A stretch of DNA of 64,000 bases. It comes from Hydrogenispora sp. GTDB taxonomy: Bacteria; Bacillota; UBA4882; UBA10575. The position numbers were made by a program, and so were the translations under genes. Shown here piece by piece: positions 8,745-49,968 of the stretch (the first letter of the stretch is position 1; the number at the start of each line of letters is the position of its first letter). The stretch spans positions 27,258-91,257 of the forward strand of contig DUQQ01000064.1 in NCBI GenBank assembly GCA_012837705.1. The letters are read 5' to 3'. The notes below the pieces were generated by a model. The model made no database searches. It saw only the letters and a program-made list of their open reading frames with translations, and had not been told where the DNA came from.

Positions 8745-8859
8745 TCTTTATCTCCTCCGATGGAATCGTCTTTCTTTCCAACTCTCCTCTACTCATTCAT
8801 CTTATTTTTATTGCAGAATGAAGGGGATGGGATAAAAAAACAATTCCGCCAGGAGGAAG

Positions 8860-9597
8860 CTACTTTTTCTTCCACTTTGCCCTTAACAACTGGGCGCTGC
8901 GTTGACGGAGTTTAAGCCGTTCTTTGCGGGTGATGTTTGCTCCTTGTCGGTAATGGTAGATGGGGACGGGAGCATAAACCACTTCATAACCGGCTTTTCG
9001 CACCCGCCAACAAAAATCAACTTCTTCGCCGTACATAAAGAACTGTTCGTCAAAGCCCCCGATTTTGGTGAAAATTTCGCGTTTGACCAGAAAACAGCTG
9101 CCCTGGACCCAGCGGACCTTTTTTTCCTGGTCCAAGAGGCCCGGACGGTCCTTTTGTCCTTTGCCCCGGATTTTACCATCGGCACCTGCATGGTAAATGG
9201 AGCCGTCGGGGTTGAGAATTTTTGCCCCAACGACCATTGCTTTTTTATGCCGTGCGGCGCTTTGTATTAATTTAGGGAGCCAGTCCCGGGTAAACTTGAG
9301 ATCGGGGTTTAAGAAGACAATATACCGGCTGGAAGTCATCCTTACCGCCTGGTTCCAGGCTTTCGCCACACCGAGATTCTTTTTGTTGAAAACTAACTGC
9401 ATTTTGTGGCGGAAAAAATGATCTTGTGCCTTTGATTGTAAATAAGCCTTGCTCTGGTCTTGACTGTTGTTATCGATCACCAATAAACGAAAAGGCAGTT
9501 TGGTGGATTGCCGTAAGGACTGGAAAAAGGTGGGCAAGGAAAGTGCGCTCTCGTAGGTGACCATTACAAGATCAACATGGGTTTTCACCATTATCAT
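8860..9597 (-). CDS. Glycosyltransferase family 2
   Basis: VDLVMVTYESALSLPTFFQSL...IVFLNPDLKFT...FDEQFFMYGEEVDFCWRVRKAGYEV. Confidence 0.9.
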   Translation of the reverse strand: MIMVKTHVDLVMVTYESALSLPTFFQSLRQSTKLPFRLLVIDNNSQDQSKAYLQSKAQDHFFRHKMQLVFNKKNLGVAKAWNQAVRMTSSRYIVFLNPDLKFTRDWLPKLIQSAARHKKAMVVGAKILNPDGSIYHAGADGKIRGKGQKDRPGLLDQEKKVRWVQGSCFLVKREIFTKIGGFDEQFFMYGEEVDFCWRVRKAGYEVVYAPVPIYHYRQGANITRKERLKLRQRSAQLLRAKWKKK

Positions 9598-9677
9598 CCC
9601 CTTTCAAACTGGCCTGGGCTTCGGCAGTGAGGGGCAGGGTTTTCTGGGGCTAGCCGGTCAGACCAACTCCAGTCTGG

Positions 9678-10460
9678 TTAGGCTTTCTCCCGATTGTCTT
9701 TGGCCGGTTTGGTCTGGGGATTCCAGGGACGAATGCGGTTGTTGGGCCGGACCGTATACATCATGGTTTTCCCGAAATCAATCGCTACTTTGTTGTAGCG
9801 CTTGGCAATGGCCGGGGCGAGAATCACCGCGTTGACCCCGGCGGAGATTAAGGCCAGATCAAATTCGTATTTACCTACTTTTTTGAGGACGGTTGAGATT
9901 TGGTCATAATGCTCAAAATTGATGGTCCCCACGATCTGTGGGGGTAGATCCGCGTATTTGCTGGTTATCTGTTTGGCGTATTCATCGGCCCACTTCGAGA
10001 TGAGAAGAGTTCGGTATTGGTGGATAATCTTCCAGAAATAGCGGTAAGAGACCATCTTGCGGTTACAGAAGACATAGCAGAGTTCGCGGGGCTGTAAGTT
10101 GTAATAATCGAAGATTCTATTGGTGAGGGCCCGTTTAAATCTGGTTGGTGCGGAGACTTCATCGTTCTGCTGTCGACAGATACCGACAACATCGGCCGCT
10201 TTGATCCCCTTCAACATCCGGTCGCGAAGGGTGAGGTTGGGGAGGTCTACTCCTTTTCTTCCGGTACGGCTATCCCGCACCCAGTAGGTCTGTTCCAGTT
10301 CTTCGTTGCTGAGGAATTTACCCTGGGCGAGGACGATATTTTCACCATCGCCGATCCGGACCAGGGAAAAAGGTTTCTGTTCGCGGAGGGCCCGGTGAAT
10401 TTTCCGTAAGACTTCTAATTCGGAGAGGAGCTTCTTGTCAGGAAAATCCTTAAGGGACAT
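9678..10460 (-). CDS. GT-D fold-type glycosyltransferase domain protein
   Basis: FSLVRIGDGENIVLAQGK...; start at MSLKDFPDKK (10460) rather than ORF start. Confidence 0.65.
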   Translation of the reverse strand: MSLKDFPDKKLLSELEVLRKIHRALREQKPFSLVRIGDGENIVLAQGKFLSNEELEQTYWVRDSRTGRKGVDLPNLTLRDRMLKGIKAADVVGICRQQNDEVSAPTRFKRALTNRIFDYYNLQPRELCYVFCNRKMVSYRYFWKIIHQYRTLLISKWADEYAKQITSKYADLPPQIVGTINFEHYDQISTVLKKVGKYEFDLALISAGVNAVILAPAIAKRYNKVAIDFGKTMMYTVRPNNRIRPWNPQTKPAKDNREKA

Positions 10461-11298
10461 GGTTTGCTCCTCCTTCTGGGGTGGACCGGCTTTGTGCCGC
10501 TTCTTGCGCGGCGCTGAGCAAAGTGCGAACCTCGGCGATCTGGTGCTCAGGGTAACCGAACCGCCGCATGATTTCCGCTTCCGCCGGGCCGAGGACAAAA
10601 CTTTTTTTCCAGGTCTCAAAGTCGCTTCGAGCTTCCTTCTTTTTAACATAGAAAAGTTTCCAGGCCCCATAAAGCGGATCTGACTCTTCCGTCCGTCCTA
10701 AACTGGTGCAAATGTGGGAAGTCAGATAGGCTTTCTTGAGACCAAGCTTATTTGCTTTCCGCTCGTAATGCCGTTCTCCTACGCCGTAGAGGGGGAGATC
10801 GGTTAAGTAAAAGTGTTTTCGCCATAACTGTTTATCGATCATCATGCACCAGAAAAGTATAGTACTGCGCCGGAACTCCAGGGTATAACCGGCCTTTTTC
10901 ACCTGTTGACGCGGGTGTCCTTGGATCGCGGCGGGAAGGAGCGCAACATAGGCCAGCTTTGGGAAGTCCTTTAAGGCCTGGTACATCGCGGCGGTCCAAT
11001 TTTTATTGGGAACGAGTACATCATCGTCCAGCTTGACAAGATATTGGCCCTGGGCATGTTCGGCACCGTATTGGAAACCGGGCATACAGCCGATGTTCTG
11101 TCCCGGATCCAGGATGCGGACCCGGGGGTGTTTGAACTCGTGCAGAAAGGTCATGGCATCCGTGTAGGGTGGATGGTTATTGATCAGGATGATCTCGCTG
11201 TTTTGGTCCGTGCTGACCAGCGCTGCTTCGAGGCATTTTTTTATCAAAGGTAAGGTGTTATAACAATTAATAATAATTGAAAATCGCAACCTGCTCAT
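10450..11298 (-). CDS. Glycosyltransferase family 2
   Basis: FSIIINCYNTLPLIKKCLEAAL...GQYLVKLDDDVLVP. Confidence 0.85.
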   Translation of the reverse strand: MSRLRFSIIINCYNTLPLIKKCLEAALVSTDQNSEIILINNHPPYTDAMTFLHEFKHPRVRILDPGQNIGCMPGFQYGAEHAQGQYLVKLDDDVLVPNKNWTAAMYQALKDFPKLAYVALLPAAIQGHPRQQVKKAGYTLEFRRSTILFWCMMIDKQLWRKHFYLTDLPLYGVGERHYERKANKLGLKKAYLTSHICTSLGRTEESDPLYGAWKLFYVKKKEARSDFETWKKSFVLGPAEAEIMRRFGYPEHQIAEVRTLLSAAQEAAQSRSTPEGGANHVP

Positions 11299-11542
11299 CC
11301 TTTCTGGTACCTCTTTTCTTTAGTGTACGGCTTCGCTGTGTCTGGCGTGATGTGGTCAAGGCATTTTCCAAGTAGGGTTCTCAAGAATACGATTAGGTAA
11401 AGGAATTCGTAGCGGTATATGGCGGGATCCCTGGTAGAAGGGCCTTTTACTGGAACAAGTTGTTCCTTCAAAAAGATTGATCTCATATAATATTCCGATA
11501 TTCCGAATCAGAAAACGGTTAATGACCGAAGGAGGAAAGAAG

Positions 11543-12613
11543 ATGAGGGTCCTGTTTGTTGATTCCGGAGCAATGGGCTTTCACTACCGCTACGCCTATG
11601 ATATCTTTGTGACCCTAAAAAAGATGAAGCATCATGTGCGGCAGATCGGCCCACGGAAGCTTTCTTCCGGCCTCATCAAGGAGTTTCGCCCCGAAGTGTT
11701 ATTGGTGGTGCATGGGAACCGTACTCCGCTGGAACAGGTCCATTATGCCCGTTCCTTAGGGGTGAAAACGGTTCTGTGGTTAGTGGAAGATCCCTATGAG
11801 ATCGATCTGCACCGTGGTCCGATGGTTGAAGCCTATGATCTGGTCTTTACCAACGAACGGCAGGCTGTCACCGAATATAATCACCCCCGGGTCTTTTATC
11901 TGCCCTGGTGTTGTAATCCCGAAGTTCATCGGCGCCTGAAGACAGCGGAAGAATACCGCAGTGATCTCTGTTTTGTGGGGATGGGGTTTCCCAATCGCTT
12001 GAAGGTCCTGAACGCGATTGCGCCCTTCCTCAAGAAATTGAACGTTAAATTAATCGGGGTCTGGGACCGTTGGGGGGAATTACACCCGGATCTGCGGAAA
12101 TTCGTGCAACCGGTGATCCATGATTTCCACGAGGTGCAGAAATATTTTAACGGGGCCAAGATCAATCTGAACATCCACCGCGATCCGGTTAATCCACCGT
12201 CCGGAAATAGCCGGGGCGTAGGGGCGACCAGTCCTAACGATCGGGCCTTTGCGCTAGCGGGCTGTGGCGCTTTTCAGATCGTCGATGCGACGCGACCGGA
12301 TCTTTTTAAATATTTTACCGAAGGCAAAGAGATCGTCAGTTTTTCCAACCCCGATGATTTGGCGGATAAAATCAAATACTACCTGGGTAAAACAAAACTA
12401 CGCCGCCAGATCGGCGACGCAGCGCACCAAAGGGCCTATCGGGAGCATACTTATCACCACCGTTTACAGCGGATCTTTGCGGAGGTGGCCAAACTGCCCA
12501 CATCCTATTGGGCACGGGTCAGTGTGCGAAGGCCGGTGGCCTTTTCCTTTCACGATGGCTACCTACAGCAAGAAGGGATCTGGACCTTTGAGCCTCCCCG
12601 GAGTATTAAATAA
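11543..12613 (+). CDS. CgeB-like glycosyltransferase
   Basis: MRVLFVDSGAMGFHYRYAYDIF...FTNERQAVTEY...YLPWCCNPEVHRR...DLCFVGMGFPNRLKVL...NDRAFALAGCGAFQIVD; GGAGG before ATG 11543. Confidence 0.75.
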   Translation: MRVLFVDSGAMGFHYRYAYDIFVTLKKMKHHVRQIGPRKLSSGLIKEFRPEVLLVVHGNRTPLEQVHYARSLGVKTVLWLVEDPYEIDLHRGPMVEAYDLVFTNERQAVTEYNHPRVFYLPWCCNPEVHRRLKTAEEYRSDLCFVGMGFPNRLKVLNAIAPFLKKLNVKLIGVWDRWGELHPDLRKFVQPVIHDFHEVQKYFNGAKINLNIHRDPVNPPSGNSRGVGATSPNDRAFALAGCGAFQIVDATRPDLFKYFTEGKEIVSFSNPDDLADKIKYYLGKTKLRRQIGDAAHQRAYREHTYHHRLQRIFAEVAKLPTSYWARVSVRRPVAFSFHDGYLQQEGIWTFEPPRSIK

Positions 12614-13400
12614 AGGCTTGTTCCCCCGGGAAAACCGGTGCTTTGTCCTCAAACAACCGTTCCCATCCGTATTGTGCTAAGTAAGACGCCCATTTCCGGT
12701 TGAAATGCGCCCAACTGGCCGTGGCCAGTTTTTCGTTTACCACCGGGTCACTACGGTCAAAAGAAGCATGGACCGTGTGCTCAATCAAGACATCACAGGC
12801 GATCCGCAACTGGTAGCCTTTTTCGCGAATCCGGAGGGCCAGATCAAAGTCATCAGCGCCTAAAGCCAGCTTTTCGTCGAAAGGACCGATCTTTGCGGGT
12901 AAGCGGCGGTCAAAAAGGACCAGACAGCCGATGAGAAACTTGGCGCGCTGGGATTGACGGGCGTAAAGGGCGGCAAATTTACGGTCGGCGGCCGGTAAGT
13001 GACGGGAGAATGCCTGGGGACCGGCCCATTGCTTGCCCCCAATCCCCAGACTTTTGGGACCAACCATTAAGGTTAGAGGATGTTGCTTTAGATGCCATAT
13101 GAGCCGGTTTGCCCAGTTCAACGGGGTGATGACATCTGCATTCATCGTCACCAGATAACGGCCGGTGGCACGCGCGAGGCCTTGGTTACAGGCGGCCGCG
13201 TAGCCCCGGTTTTCGGAATTGAAGATGACACGGGTGTGGGGGGCGTTTAAGGAGTGGAGCCAGGCGGCGGAATCATCGGTGGAGTGGTTGTCAACAATGA
13301 TTATTTCGTGGGGGAGCGTTGTCGTGGTGGCCAGTGTCGCCAGGCACCGTTGCAGAAAAGGACGGGTATTGTAATTGACAATAATGATGCTTAATTCCAT
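12606..13400 (-). CDS. Glycosyltransferase family 2
   Basis: MELSIIIVNYNTRPFLQRCLATL...NRGYAAACNQGLARATGRYLVTMNADV. Confidence 0.9.
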   Translation of the reverse strand: MELSIIIVNYNTRPFLQRCLATLATTTTLPHEIIIVDNHSTDDSAAWLHSLNAPHTRVIFNSENRGYAAACNQGLARATGRYLVTMNADVITPLNWANRLIWHLKQHPLTLMVGPKSLGIGGKQWAGPQAFSRHLPAADRKFAALYARQSQRAKFLIGCLVLFDRRLPAKIGPFDEKLALGADDFDLALRIREKGYQLRIACDVLIEHTVHASFDRSDPVVNEKLATASWAHFNRKWASYLAQYGWERLFEDKAPVFPGEQAFI

Positions 13401-44150: not shown

Positions 44151-44191
44151 GAAAAAGGCAGTGGTTGCTCGAAACCACTGCCTTTTTCTTT
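44151..44191. terminator. Bidirectional terminator between convergent pgmB and usher-like gene
   Basis: AAAAAGGCAGTGGTT-GCTCG-AAACCACTGCCTTTTT. Confidence 0.85.
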
Positions 44192-44226: not shown

Positions 44227-47200
44227 TCAATCGGTGGTGAGCAAAGGAAAATCCAGGCCACTGACTTCGAGGCTCTCTTCGGTCAGGGTGAACGTCTTGA
44301 CATCATGGCCGACGGTCTCGAGGTTTGTGGGTAAACTCGTGCGGTCAAGGGTGAGCGCATGGGTACCCAAGGGGACCCCTTCGAAATAGAAACGGCCGTC
44401 CTCACTGGTGAAGACTTGTTGTGCGCCGTCGTCCAAGATAACCCCCACCCAGGAGACGGGCTCTTCGTCCCCGTCCTGTATGCCATTGGCATTACGGTCG
44501 ATAAAGACTTTACCGCTGACCGAGCCGTTGGCGGTCACCGCAAAGTCGATAAAGAAGTTTTCCTGTTCCCGCAGGCGGATTAACTGTGGTCCCGTAACCG
44601 GTGTATAATTCGCGGGTAAAGAGGGGAGATGGAACTCCACCCGGTAAATCCCCGGGTCTAAGTTGGCGAAGAGATATTCCCCATGTTCATTGCTGGTGGT
44701 AGTGCTACCATCCAGCCGAATCCTGATGGCGGAGAGGGGCTTATCAGCCTTGTCAAAGCGCCCGTTAGCGTTGATATCCAGATAAACCACCCCGCTAATG
44801 CTGGCCATGTTGTCTTCTTCCGTGTAGCGGAAGGGCTTCCACACCCCATCAGCAAACCCAAGGGCGCGGCTGAGCGAGATCTGGATCACATCCTCCGGGA
44901 CTTCATCCCACAACGCGTCATAGAGCCGCTTGAGTTCCAGTTTGAGTAGGAAAGAGGAAGGAAGATATCTTTCTAGACTTAAGCCGTAGGACCATTGGGG
45001 ATGCTTGCGTGTGCTCACCGGCGAGCGGTACCCAAGGCTTCCATTGATCTTCCATTTCCCGTCGTAGGTGAAATAATTTAAGCCCAGGTTGGCGGTGGTA
45101 TAACGGTAGTCCTGCGCTGCGGAGTAGAAGGGCAATTCTCTGATCCGTTTCACATCCATGAACAGGGTGAGTTCGCGGGAGAGAAACTGATAAAGGGCAA
45201 GACCGGTTGTGAGCTCATCGATCTGGAAAGTTGCGTCCGGTGGAGACTCTTTGCGCCCTTGCAAGAGAAAATTGCTCATCAGGAGGGTATTGGCCGTCAT
45301 ATTCCATTTGGTGTTGGCCTCTCCAGTAAGGTTCAGACCGGCATAACGCTGTTCTTTCCAGGTGTTCGTGGTATCCAGCGCGACACCAAAAAGGAAGTTA
45401 CGGGCGACCGCTAAAGTCAGATCGCTGAGGAGATAGAGTTTCTGCAAGTTGAAGGGGCCTTCCTGGTTGAGGAAGAAATCAGCGGTGACAAACTCCACTT
45501 TTGTACTGGTGCCAAAGATGTTTTCCCGCTGGATGTGTTTTATGTTGAAACTGGTTTCTTCGACTTCGAAAAAACCTTGGTTTTTGTCTTCGGTTTTCCA
45601 TTCTTTCCCGATTCCCCCGGCGAGACTGTTCTGGCCGTAGTGCCCAAAACGCTTGGTCAGCGTCAGGTTGGCCCCATCCAAGGACCAGGGACGGGCGGTT
45701 GGCGTTGCTTCGATAAGATAACCTTCAGTCGTGAGGAGCAGATCTTCTTTAAGCTCAAGCTCGGAAAGGATCTTTCCCCCTTGGCCCGGTTCGGTTTTGA
45801 CTCCAAGGGAGACGGCTGTTGGTATATAGAAAATAACTCCTTTAAAATAACCGTTTTCGAGGCAATACAAGAGGGAAGCTTCAAGGCCCGAGCGCACATC
45901 GGTCTTGATTTCGCCACCGACCATCCAATCCAGCGTACAGATGAGGTTGTCGTTGATACGGAAAGCGACGCCCGTATCAGCACCGACATAACTTAAATCG
46001 GGAAAAGCGACAAAGGGCGCGGAGACCGTTGTCTCCTGTTCAAAAGTGAGGTTCGCGGTGACGGCTTTCCGTTGGCGGTAACTAACCAGAACGCCTTCCC
46101 ACTCCGTCACATCGGTTGGTTTGTAGAGACCAACGGTGACCAAGAGCTCGTTGCCTTCTTGTTTCATAATCCGGGGTGAGGCGGCAATCATTTGGGTCGC
46201 TTCGAAGGTCGCGCCGTTTTCTTTTTGCGTCACGATCCGGATTTGGTTGACCCGGTTAATCCGGAGCGGAACATCACGGAAAAGATATTCCCCATCGGCC
46301 GCCAGCTGTTGGGTTTCCCATAAACGGTCATTCACATAAAGTAACACCTGATCGCCGGCGGCGGCCGTACCGGAGACATCAGTGTAGGCAACTAATTCAC
46401 TGCGGAACTGTTCGTCGGGGATCATATACAAAATGCCCCAAAGATCCTGTTTGGCAATGGTGTTTTCTAAATCAAGGGTGGTATTACCGATGATGATTAG
46501 TTCGTTATCTTTCTGGTATTTACCGCGCAGCAGCGTCAGATCGGGTTTGAAGGTTTGCTGATCAAACTCATATTCAGCGCCTCCGGCGATGGAAAGCGCC
46601 CACTCTCCCGCATAACCGTCGGTGCGGATCTTAAAGAAGCCTGTCACTGTCTCGTGCTCGCCGGCTTCTTTCCGGTGTTCGGCCCCCAGTTGATAACGGA
46701 CCGCACTAAGCGCAAAGGGCGGACCTTCTTGGGGTGGCGGTGCTTTGCGCGGCTCCGGGGCCTCTTTTTCCGGTCGGATGGGGGTGGGGCTTTGTTTCAG
46801 CAAAGCCGCATCCACGTTGATGCTGAGGGTCTGGTAAGCGAAGTCCCAGTCAATCTCGGCTTCGAGGAAAGTCGCTAAAAAAGGGATCCCGACAAAGAGA
46901 TCGCTATCGAAGAGGACCGGGGGCGGACTGTTTAAAAGGGATTGTCCGTCGATCCGGTAAACCTGCTCTTCCAGGTAAATCTCGGCCCATTTATCGTTGG
47001 CTTTACTTACCAACACCACCTTTTCTTCCCGCCGGAAATAGGAGACTTCCAGATTAAGATGGGCCGCCAGACGGTTGACCGGAACCAATAGCTCATCGCC
47101 CAGTTCCAGGAGGTCAAAGAAGGGATCTTGGATGACTGTGGTCCCTTCCGTTTTGATTAACAAGAGGACAACACTGGTGTCCAGGGCGTTGGTATCCCAC

Positions 47201-47298
47201 GCGGAAGCCGGCGCTCGCGTAAAAAAAGAAAGTAACGCGCAGAAGACCATCACCCATTGTAAGTTAAGGTAAACTCTTTTATTCCTTCTTTTTGGCAT
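44227..47298 (-). CDS. Usher-like outer-membrane barrel with N-terminal copper-amine-oxidase-like domain and two C-terminal SdrD_B-like repeats
   Basis: Signal peptide; N-terminal ELLVPVNRLAAHLNLEVSYFRREEKVVLVSK; usher-like VLLYVNDRLWETQQLAADGEYLFRDVPLRINRVNQIRIVTQKENGATFEATQMI; long amphipathic beta region; SISGVVYLDINANGRFDKADKPLSAIRIRLDG and SVSGKVFIDRNANGIQDGDEEPVSWVGVILDDG. Confidence 0.65.
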   Translation of the reverse strand: MPKRRNKRVYLNLQWVMVFCALLSFFTRAPASAWDTNALDTSVVLLLIKTEGTTVIQDPFFDLLELGDELLVPVNRLAAHLNLEVSYFRREEKVVLVSKANDKWAEIYLEEQVYRIDGQSLLNSPPPVLFDSDLFVGIPFLATFLEAEIDWDFAYQTLSINVDAALLKQSPTPIRPEKEAPEPRKAPPPQEGPPFALSAVRYQLGAEHRKEAGEHETVTGFFKIRTDGYAGEWALSIAGGAEYEFDQQTFKPDLTLLRGKYQKDNELIIIGNTTLDLENTIAKQDLWGILYMIPDEQFRSELVAYTDVSGTAAAGDQVLLYVNDRLWETQQLAADGEYLFRDVPLRINRVNQIRIVTQKENGATFEATQMIAASPRIMKQEGNELLVTVGLYKPTDVTEWEGVLVSYRQRKAVTANLTFEQETTVSAPFVAFPDLSYVGADTGVAFRINDNLICTLDWMVGGEIKTDVRSGLEASLLYCLENGYFKGVIFYIPTAVSLGVKTEPGQGGKILSELELKEDLLLTTEGYLIEATPTARPWSLDGANLTLTKRFGHYGQNSLAGGIGKEWKTEDKNQGFFEVEETSFNIKHIQRENIFGTSTKVEFVTADFFLNQEGPFNLQKLYLLSDLTLAVARNFLFGVALDTTNTWKEQRYAGLNLTGEANTKWNMTANTLLMSNFLLQGRKESPPDATFQIDELTTGLALYQFLSRELTLFMDVKRIRELPFYSAAQDYRYTTANLGLNYFTYDGKWKINGSLGYRSPVSTRKHPQWSYGLSLERYLPSSFLLKLELKRLYDALWDEVPEDVIQISLSRALGFADGVWKPFRYTEEDNMASISGVVYLDINANGRFDKADKPLSAIRIRLDGSTTTSNEHGEYLFANLDPGIYRVEFHLPSLPANYTPVTGPQLIRLREQENFFIDFAVTANGSVSGKVFIDRNANGIQDGDEEPVSWVGVILDDGAQQVFTSEDGRFYFEGVPLGTHALTLDRTSLPTNLETVGHDVKTFTLTEESLEVSGLDFPLLTTD

Positions 47299-47338
47299 GT
47301 GCTAATCCCCCTTATCTGCCGGTTCAAGGAAAGACAAA

Positions 47339-48139
47339 TCAGGGAATGGTAAAGGGAACTACGGGAGCGAGTGTTTCGGTTGTCCCTGAAAAACTGAGTT
47401 TTAACGATAACTGATAATTACCGGTGGGTAGTTCCGCATTGATGGGCAGCGCCAGCAGCCCTTGGCTAGCGGGGAGGATCAGTTGCTCTCCTCCGTTACC
47501 ATCGGCGTAGAGTGTACCGTCTTCTCCGTTGATTTGGTAGGCGACCTGATAGCGGATGTGCGCTTGCCCTTCATTGGCCAAACCCAGCATTATCGTTGGT
47601 TGGCCTTGTGGAGTCGGTTCGACTTTTACCCCCAGCAAACGAAAGGAATGGACGGTTTCGGTAAAGGAAAGATAAACGGTGGTCCCAACCTGAAAAACCA
47701 CCGTTGAACCCATCGTGTCGGGTGACGGCTGGTTTTCTTCAAAAAAGATGATCCCCCTTCTTTCCAACCAGTCCCCGCTTTTCGGTGCGGTCAAGGTGAA
47801 ACGGACATACTGGCTCTGGCCGGGGCCCAGTTTAAACCGGCGGGGGTTAAATTTAATCAAGCCGTCGAGGGTATCCGCCCGTTCACCGGCGCGGAAGGTG
47901 ACGAGGCGGCCTGCGGCGTCGAGCGTCCAGTCGTAAATAACGGCGGTAAATTCCACCTCCGTCTCCTGGGTGTTGGTGACTTTAATGGCGTCGGTGATCC
48001 GGGCACCCGGCTGTAAAGTAAAGAGAAACTTACTGGGCTCGACCCGGGCGACGCCCAGGGCGGCGGGCGCGAAGGATAAAGCCCATAAGAAAGCAGCAGT
48101 TAGGAAGATTAATCCTCGCCGTTGTACTGGTCTGAACAT
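47339..48139 (-). CDS. PapD-like periplasmic pilus-assembly chaperone
   Basis: Signal peptide; VEPSKFLFTLQPGARITDAIKVTNTQETEVEFTAVIYDW...FNPRRFKLGPGQSQYVRFTLTAP...STVVFQVGTTVYLSF: two-Ig chaperone layout. Confidence 0.65.
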   Translation of the reverse strand: MFRPVQRRGLIFLTAAFLWALSFAPAALGVARVEPSKFLFTLQPGARITDAIKVTNTQETEVEFTAVIYDWTLDAAGRLVTFRAGERADTLDGLIKFNPRRFKLGPGQSQYVRFTLTAPKSGDWLERRGIIFFEENQPSPDTMGSTVVFQVGTTVYLSFTETVHSFRLLGVKVEPTPQGQPTIMLGLANEGQAHIRYQVAYQINGEDGTLYADGNGGEQLILPASQGLLALPINAELPTGNYQLSLKLSFSGTTETLAPVVPFTIP

Positions 48140-48228
48140 TGTCGGTTCCTCCCTGCAGAGATTGATAATTAAAGAGAGGCTGGTGCGGCGCGTCCACCAG
48201 CCCGTAAGGCTTCGAATGGCAGGCGAGC

Positions 48229-49059
48229 TTAGAGAGTATACGCGCGGAATACAATGGTACCATCGTAGCGGCCTTGCGCGATATTACGGCCATACGGGAC
48301 CCTAAACTGGTGGTAGACCGTTAACTCCTCGCAAGCCTCTTTTTCGGCAACCTCAAAGATCTTGCCATCTTCATCAAAGACGAAAGTGCCACCGAAACGT
48401 TGCATACTGAAGCCACTGCGCATATGGAGTGGTAGAGAACCTTTTTCGGACGTTAAGGGTCCGGCTTCGACTTCATATTTGTAATTGTCGTTGGCGTAAA
48501 CCTCTACTTTAAAGAGGTCACAGCCCTGAATATAGACCTGATCATTTTGGATATCAAATTCGCTGTGCGGATTATGACCAAGCATATTCCAGCGGTCGTC
48601 GACAAAGCCGCCAATCTCATTGTCAAAAACCAAGAGATAACCGGAAGAAGCGGCTTTCGTATCAATGCCTGGCCCGTAGCTTCTTAAACCGGTCTGACCC
48701 TTGTTTCCGGTCACTTTCATCTCAAGGTAGCTGGGGATGAAAGCCCGAGCTTCCAGGGTCATCTCCACCGATTGGCCGTTGACACGGTTATCATCAAAGA
48801 CATAGTCGGTCCGGTTAATCCAGTCGATATTGACAAATTCATCGCCGGTTTTGTTCCAAGTAACTTTACCGTCATCAAAGATATGGCCAAACATATACCC
48901 AATTATGTCGGTGGGATCGATGGCGTTGTTGTATTCCCACCACGGATATTCCGGACTTAGATCGCCCGGGTAGCCACTGGCGATCGTAGCCACAGAAAGC
49001 GAAAGGAGGACCAGAGTGATCAGGACCGGATATATTTTTTTCATCTTATCCAACCTCAC
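48229..49059 (-). CDS. Secreted pilin-like subunit
   Basis: Signal peptide MKKIYPVLITLVLLSLSVATIASG; beta-rich; C-terminus QGRYDGTIVFRAYTL resembles pilin/spore-coat-U type terminal strand. Confidence 0.5.
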   Translation of the reverse strand: MRLDKMKKIYPVLITLVLLSLSVATIASGYPGDLSPEYPWWEYNNAIDPTDIIGYMFGHIFDDGKVTWNKTGDEFVNIDWINRTDYVFDDNRVNGQSVEMTLEARAFIPSYLEMKVTGNKGQTGLRSYGPGIDTKAASSGYLLVFDNEIGGFVDDRWNMLGHNPHSEFDIQNDQVYIQGCDLFKVEVYANDNYKYEVEAGPLTSEKGSLPLHMRSGFSMQRFGGTFVFDEDGKIFEVAEKEACEELTVYHQFRVPYGRNIAQGRYDGTIVFRAYTL

Positions 49060-49128
49060 TAGTATTTTTATTTATTACAAACCGGTATAAACGCGCCTCT
49101 ACCGGAGTGTAACCTGGAGATAACTGAG

Positions 49129-49968
49129 CTAAGGGAGAAGGGTTTCGGCCGCAAAAAACATTTTAAAGTTATAGTTGCCGGTGGGGTAATGGTACCAGTC
49201 GTCGATCGCTGCGGTGAGGTAGAGTTCGGTCCAGTAATTGGCGGGGGTCGAACCATCGCCAACCACTGTCGGCGCCCCAAAAGCCACGGGACGATAATCG
49301 TCACTGACTCGCATTCTTTCTTTAAAAACGACTGTATTAAGGGTTTTACCGATGCCGATCTGGAGCGGGAACGGAGAGGTGTGGAAAGGTGTTTCGTTTT
49401 CGAGGCGTAGTAAAAGGCGCCAGGGGGCATTGGAAGCCAGCAATAATTTGACCGGATTGCGGGTCAAGAGCTTGTCTTCTCTCAAAAATGGCGATGCGGC
49501 GATGTTAAGCTGCGGCGTAGAGTTTCCCGGTTCGATGCGGATCCAGGGTAGGATCTTGATTTTGACCAGTAAGGGGCAGGGTTGTGTCGTTTTGCGGTCC
49601 GGGTAAACCGCATAAATCAAGCCTTCGTATTCGCCGGGCGGCTCGGAAGGCAAAAGCTGGATCTGGAGGTGATAGACGGTTCGCGTCGCGTTGTTTTGTG
49701 TGGAAGGGTCGGGAGTAAAAGTAAGGCGTTCCGCCGGAATCCGGTTTCCGGTTTTGGCGGCGGAAAGCCCCGTGCCTTTGAACTGGACTGCTTGTGTGGG
49801 GGGCACCGGGAGGGTGAAGGCTAAAGCACGGCTCATTTTCTGTACGGGAGCGATCGACCCAAAGTCCATGATTAATGGCTTGTTCGCATGGGCGAACGCG
49901 GTCGGTAAAGTCAGGAAAACCGTGAAAAGAATAAGACTGAACCAAAGGGCCGGAGTACGCGTTTTCAT
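49129..49968 (-). CDS. Secreted two-domain beta-rich protein, candidate second pilus subunit or tip protein
   Basis: Signal peptide; internal GEYEGLIYAVYP and terminal PTGNYNFKMFFAAETLLP strands; first gene of the minus-strand operon. Confidence 0.45.
   Translation of the reverse strand: MKTRTPALWFSLILFTVFLTLPTAFAHANKPLIMDFGSIAPVQKMSRALAFTLPVPPTQAVQFKGTGLSAAKTGNRIPAERLTFTPDPSTQNNATRTVYHLQIQLLPSEPPGEYEGLIYAVYPDRKTTQPCPLLVKIKILPWIRIEPGNSTPQLNIAASPFLREDKLLTRNPVKLLLASNAPWRLLLRLENETPFHTSPFPLQIGIGKTLNTVVFKERMRVSDDYRPVAFGAPTVVGDGSTPANYWTELYLTAAIDDWYHYPTGNYNFKMFFAAETLLP

Follow-up and report, generated by a model that had tools for sequence, protein, structure and literature searches.

A probable divergent chaperone-usher-type operon in a diderm, spore-forming lineage of the Firmicutes

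The window analysed here, a stretch of 64,000 nucleotides from Hydrogenispora sp. (GenBank assembly GCA_012837705.1, contig DUQQ01000064.1), carries on its minus strand four consecutive genes that are best read, with a probability of about 0.84, as a chaperone-usher (CU)-type assembly system, a divergent form of the CU pathway in a diderm, spore-forming member of the Firmicutes. The genes encode P1 (49129-49968; 279 aa), a probable minor subunit or tip protein; P2 (48229-49059; 276 aa), a probable major pilin-like subunit; P3 (47339-48139; 266 aa), a predicted soluble periplasmic chaperone; and P4 (44227-47298; 1023 aa), an outer-membrane usher-like protein. An earlier interpretation made from the letters of the window (the sequence-only reading) had proposed such a system; its four open reading frames (ORFs) were confirmed at the same coordinates and lengths, and support was obtained for the parts and for the envelope of the host, while the fibre itself we infer.

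Identification of P4 as an usher began from its predicted fold. A template-free AlphaFold (AF2) model, built from an alignment of 23 relatives, had a mean predicted local distance difference test score (pLDDT) of 67 and is unreliable at residues 431-606. As the sequence-only reading had suggested, the model was compared with the PDB using Foldseek, and the top 16 matches were all FimD or PapC (best E 7.8e-28, probability 1.0). Below the ushers were found the SdrD B domains (6.6e-12), while barrels of other kinds, FecA and Occ porins among them, appeared only from about 1e-6; a plain SdrD adhesin was rejected as an identity for P4, given that the usher matches rank far above SdrD. Six strands at residues 195-293 begin a beta-barrel that spans residues 195-816 (44851-46716), and they are followed by a plug-like domain at residues 304-373 (46180-46389); a plug inserted after six barrel strands is the arrangement of ushers. 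Usher barrels have 24 strands; in the P4 model the strand count is obscured at residues 431-606, where pLDDT is below 50. With hhalign, a profile of 13 P4 relatives matched one of eight Escherichia coli K-12 ushers (97.6%, E 4e-12, score 112); the reversed K-12 usher profile, used as control, gave 1.4% and a score of 29.5. The alignment pairs 'VSGTAAAGDQVLLYVNDRLWETQQLAADGEYLFRDVPLR...PRIMKQEGNELLVTVGLYK' of P4 with 'IHGIARGTAQVTIKQNGYDIYNSTVPPGPFTINDIY...VPLLQREGHTRYSITAGEYR' of FimD, the plug and the segment behind it; the usher-like segment picked out by the sequence-only reading is this same plug-like region. The plug segment taken alone matched ushers at 94%, and the C-terminal region matched usher C-domains at 82%. 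Pfam matches are limited to the two ends of P4, namely a Cu_amine_oxidN1 domain at residues 67-160 (46819-47100; PF07833, E 4.2e-10) and two SdrD_B-type beta-sandwich domains at residues ~833-990 (44329-44802; PF17210, E 2.6e-19); the latter provide the two beta-sandwich domains of a usher-type C-terminus. Over its last 27 residues the N-terminal domain shows a weak alignment to the final part of the FimD N-domain; the N-terminal domain of ushers may be a degenerate form of a Cu_amine_oxidN1-like domain, or such a domain may have taken its place. By modelled fold and by homology, P4 is a divergent usher, predicted to lie in the outer membrane.

For P3, two sets of relatives were used to build profiles, a type I set (n = 13) and a wide family (n = 25; profile A2). 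Comparison of the P3 profile with that of eleven K-12 CU chaperones by hhalign gave 96.4%, and 92.8% (E 4e-7) with the signal peptides removed, against 0.2% for a reversed control; the PapD-like chaperone of the sequence-only reading is thus CU-chaperone-like by profile. Among the K-12 chaperones, the wide profile favours EcpB and EcpE of the alternative pathway. Diagnostic residues of CU chaperones were described by Pakharukova et al. (PMC4654587), including Pro60 of mature EcpB, which is invariant across the superfamily. It corresponds to P99 of P3 and is present in 13/13 type I members and 23/25 of the wide family, and the arginine of domain 2 (D2; EcpB Arg148, in NTGNATLR) corresponds to R196 of P3 (NEGQAHIR), again in all 13 type I members. 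The D2 tyrosine (EcpB Tyr169) is absent from P3, where L220/Q219 are found, and a conserved type I pair, R127-R128, adjoins the position of the domain 1 (D1) arginine (Arg89), with a register that differs by 1-2 residues between the EcpB and EcpE alignments. In a chaperone tree, the type I clade joins members from Limnochordia-like and Halanaerobiales lineages with support of 98/89; deeper placements (EcpB and the forms from genomes lacking BamA) lie on long branches and were not used. From its profile matches and conserved residues, P3 is a member of the superfamily of CU chaperones and WxLIP proteins.

Classical CU operons require an outer membrane. Searches of the host genome found BamA/Omp85 (E 3.7e-34) together with SpoIVA (E 1e-112), in keeping with the diderm, spore-forming lineage of the sequence-only reading; by its gene content the host is predicted to be both diderm and spore-forming. 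BamA was found in all 29 genomes of the class that were searched. This class is likely to be Limnochordia, a diderm group (PMC11456536; PMC11448272), and the relatives with public names are Bacillota metagenome-assembled genomes (MAGs), several of them from the AS-series and UBA sets. In the phylum, BamA, P3 and P4 were counted over the same 399 genomes, 103 of which have BamA. The P4 profile matches 234 of these genomes, most via the Cu_amine_oxidN1 part alone, and only matches that reach the barrel were counted as ushers. Barrels of this type occur in 16 genomes of six families, every one of which has both BamA and a P3 match, and P3-type chaperones occur in 65 genomes, 59 of them BamA-positive (hypergeometric values, uncorrected for shared ancestry, of 2e-10 for the P4 barrel and 4e-35 for P3). 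Set against 103/399, these proportions argue that the system, as judged from gene content, follows the outer membrane.

The two remaining proteins were the subunit-like genes of the sequence-only reading, a designation supported for P2 by weak structural matches to CU pilins and for P1 by position and sequence pattern only. The AF2 model of P2 (pLDDT 71) has an unusually long N-terminal stretch of low confidence, followed by a beta domain with a strand at its C-terminal end. In a structural search against the PDB the three best matches of P2 were to CfaB, the CFA/I pilin (E 1.4e-3, probability 0.95), and CS17 pili, CsuE and the PapG pilin domain were also among the matches; this weak fold match would be meaningful only in combination with P3 and P4. 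Family and PDB profile searches with P1 and P2 found nothing, and E. coli pilin profiles overlapped with them at the signal peptide only. P1 bears two PGxY-type strand motifs, which, together with its faster evolution, suggests a two-domain subunit or tip protein.

In the mechanism proposed, P1 and P2 would be exported by Sec to the periplasm, where P3, a soluble two-domain protein, would cap each subunit, probably by lending a beta-strand. P4, as a plugged outer-membrane barrel, would take up the chaperone-subunit complexes, for which the Cu_amine_oxidN1-like domain at its N-terminus and the SdrD_B pair at its C-terminus are the probable docking sites. Through this barrel P2 would be threaded to the cell surface as a linear fibre, in which P1 would most likely be the tip or a minor subunit. 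Of these steps, donor-strand exchange, fibre formation, the role of P1 and recruitment by the P4 N-terminal domain are ones that we infer.

Several observations weigh against this interpretation. No fibre or complex has been seen or modelled for P1-P4. P2 gave only weak fold matches (E 1.4e-3), interspersed with beta proteins of no relation, P1 has neither a family match nor an assigned role, and the closest full-length PDB relative of P3 is a WxLIP and not a CU chaperone. The Usher model PF00577 matches nothing in P4 or in 61 genomes, its E. coli control being positive; the miss is a matter of detection threshold and not a biological feature, and P4 is filed as a divergent homologue. The poor quality of the P4 model at residues 431-606 accounts for low TM-scores against ushers (0.34/0.43). 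Finally, no PapC_N-type N-terminal domain, the part of FimD that recruits the chaperone, is recognisable in P4, Cu_amine_oxidN1 standing in its place, and direct comparison of this domain with the usher N-domain gave 28%, over those last 27 residues.

It follows from the first of these points, and from the unassigned P1 and the long N-terminal stretch of P2, that P4 might be taken for an usher-like secretion device exporting P1 and P2 as single surface proteins with no fibre. This is unlikely: relatives of P2, down to 171 aa in length, have the features of CU pilins (a strand-like N-terminal stretch and a final C-terminal strand), and the protein that best matches P2 is a pilin that polymerises. 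Known ushers, to our knowledge, assemble fibres or capsules of repeated subunits.

The relationship of P3 with the WxLIP proteins of Gram-positive bacteria raises a second alternative, that of a wall complex of the WxL/WxLIP type in which P3 would be a WxLIP-like scaffold that keeps P1 and P2 on the peptidoglycan, with P4 as an unrelated surface protein. PDB sequence searches returned nothing useful for the single P3 sequence or for the type I profile; only the wide profile gave matches, a full-length one to EfmWxLIP1 (E 8e-8) and one to EcpB (E 0.0027); in addition, WxLIP_PGBD is weakly matched by 7/25 members of the wide family, and membrane-anchored P3-like proteins are found in five BamA-negative genomes. 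Virtually all WxLIP have a C-terminal membrane helix, and a strand of theirs is predicted to insert into WxL (PMC10599100), whereas hydropathy revealed no such helix in P3. No Pfam match to a WxL domain was obtained in P1, P2 or 16 relatives of P2. With a predicted usher fold in P4, which always adjoins P3, and BamA in the host as well, a wall complex was rejected as quite improbable.

The BamA-negative genomes are nevertheless of interest for the origin of the P3 family. A BamA match is lacking in 6/65 P3-positive genomes; one of the six (G382) is probably an incomplete genome, its sister genomes having BamA. The remaining five each encode a P3-like protein with a membrane helix late in the chain, next to a pilin-like gene of 156-201 aa (L125:2234-3760, L126:426-2212, L127:5305-7368, L128:5334-7359 and L129:5656-7803), and no usher was found in the stretch read around it; these may be monoderm counterparts of the system. 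A C-terminal helix is present in 0/60 P3-like ORFs of other loci, four of which have hydrophobic windows in mid-protein. The sequence-only reading had named, as something that would refute it, homologues lying in monoderm genomes as wall proteins of the DUF916/WxL type, and this proved true in part: distant relatives of the chaperone are WxLIP-related and membrane-anchored in BamA-negative genomes, whereas all full-length ushers of this kind, like most of the chaperones, are in BamA-positive genomes. Because of the late helices in the five proteins and the helix and strand features of WxLIP, a common ancestry of CU chaperones and WxLIP is plausible, the five genomes offering a lead and not a demonstration. 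More tentatively, and with less than an even chance, the CU pathway may go back to the diderm ancestor of the Firmicutes, with loss of the outer membrane having led to loss of the usher, the chaperone-subunit pair being kept in membrane-anchored form and WxL/WxLIP being one descendant; consistent with this notion are the full-length match of the P3-family profile to WxLIP and the five membrane-anchored P3-like proteins that sit beside pilin-like genes with no usher.

Returning to the CU-type operon, intergenic gaps of 69, 89 and 40 bases separate P1-P2-P3-P4, which makes an operon plausible. It ends at a bidirectional terminator hairpin at 44151-44188 (16 pairs, with a T-run on either side), and each of P1-P4 has, by inspection, an N-terminal signal-like segment, both as the sequence-only reading had described; the leader of P4 falls under a simple hydropathy threshold, and P1-P3 have no membrane helix besides this segment by hydropathy. 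The P2 ORF starts with GTG, and an in-frame ATG 15 bases downstream (49044) suits the signal peptide better. Ratios of nonsynonymous to synonymous substitution (dN/dS, Jukes-Cantor-corrected) against the closest relative are ~0.33 for P1, the fastest-changing of the four, 0.17 for P2, 0.19 for P3 and 0.20 for P4; all four genes are under purifying selection. A survey of genome neighbourhoods, also proposed with the sequence-only reading, found the operon and its gene order in ten genomes of the genus and family (L031-L040) and in two of the Halanaerobiales, the cultured Orenia metallireducens (L081; usher homologue at 8795-11833) and a MAG (L082); no relative was found in the viral contigs searched. 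That the genome bin was contaminated with a fimbrial operon from a proteobacterium, which could be imagined in that most known CU systems are proteobacterial (PMC4654587), is scarcely credible and, as far as the data go, ruled out by this conserved synteny at 57-82% identity in the ten genomes and the Halanaerobiales, by the ordinary Firmicutes genes that flank the operon on its 91-kb contig, and by the failure of PF00577 to match P4.

Variations on the locus were also encountered. Directly after the usher of the Halanaerobiales MAG lies a gene for a secreted protein of 1011 aa (L082:6300-9335), a candidate adhesin, and in genome G017 (L045 / L085) one usher is flanked by two subunit-chaperone sets, i.e. 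the operon is duplicated. The host genome itself has a second, type II system (L108, G000:C65, 3-5120) of a usher-like barrel, a chaperone and four small secreted subunit-like genes, and this type is widespread in the class (e.g. L049, L051-L054, L059, L060, L065). Its barrel has an N-terminal Ig-like domain instead of Cu_amine_oxidN1 and an SdrD_B C-terminus; the hhalign comparison of its profile with the K-12 ushers gave no match, and its proposed relationship to ushers rests on the C-terminal domains and the neighbours that the two have in common. Two-unit P3-like secreted proteins of 550-600 aa in BamA-positive genomes from other families (L122:5318-6973 and 10265-11932; L132:5011-6786; L134:5923-7629 and 11660-13348) adjoin secreted proteins of 230-250 aa with no usher nearby. 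Elsewhere, a P3-like chaperone adjoins proteins of 1411-1737 aa with weak similarity to P4 (L124:706-5919; L131:3008-7243), possibly a third, giant type of usher.

Archaic CU systems have been described from Proteobacteria, Cyanobacteria and Deinococcus-Thermus (PMC4654587), and from diderm Firmicutes autotransporters, type I and type V secretion systems (T1SS/T5SS) and type IV pili (PMC7549365, PMC4793230, PMC5007114); a literature search, with preprints and most subscription journals outside its scope, found no report of CU systems in diderm Firmicutes. The present system is homologous to the CU pathway and most likely works like it, and it is set apart from the described clades because the Pfam usher threshold failed and no PapC_N domain is recognisable. 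Genome surveys miss it because the Pfam Usher model is blind to P4. If conserved in Limnochordia-like and Halanaerobiales lineages, such a variant would bring the CU pathway into the very group that saw the diderm-monoderm transition, would supply a set of genes tracking the outer membrane, and would connect CU chaperones with the WxLIP of Gram-positive bacteria in a way that can be tested; with O. metallireducens as a cultured carrier, the system is open to testing.

Among known systems, the operon shares with CU systems, including CFA/I (CfaA-E) and Csu (CsuA/B-E), the order subunit(s)-chaperone-usher, an usher with a predicted plug after six strands, and a chaperone that is nearest EcpB/EcpE among those of K-12 and keeps the invariant proline and the D2 arginine; the best fold match of P2 is CfaB of CFA/I. 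Unlike these systems, it has an usher missed by PF00577 that ends in Cu_amine_oxidN1 and SdrD_B domains, a chaperone without the D2 tyrosine anchor and with an unsure D1 arginine register, no adhesin gene after the usher, and a spore-forming diderm Firmicute as host. The usher fold and plug alignment are likewise those of the classical FimCD/PapDC, from which the operon differs in ~10% identity, in the domain ends of P4 and in a P3 nearer to EcpB than to FimC/PapD. With the Gram-positive WxL/WxLIP clusters, in which WxLIP is predicted to insert a strand into the partner protein (PMC10599100), the P3 family has in common the full-length match to EfmWxLIP1 and two Ig-like domains; it is distinguished from them by a P3 free of a membrane helix, by P1 and P2 without a WxL match, and by the presence of a predicted outer-membrane usher.

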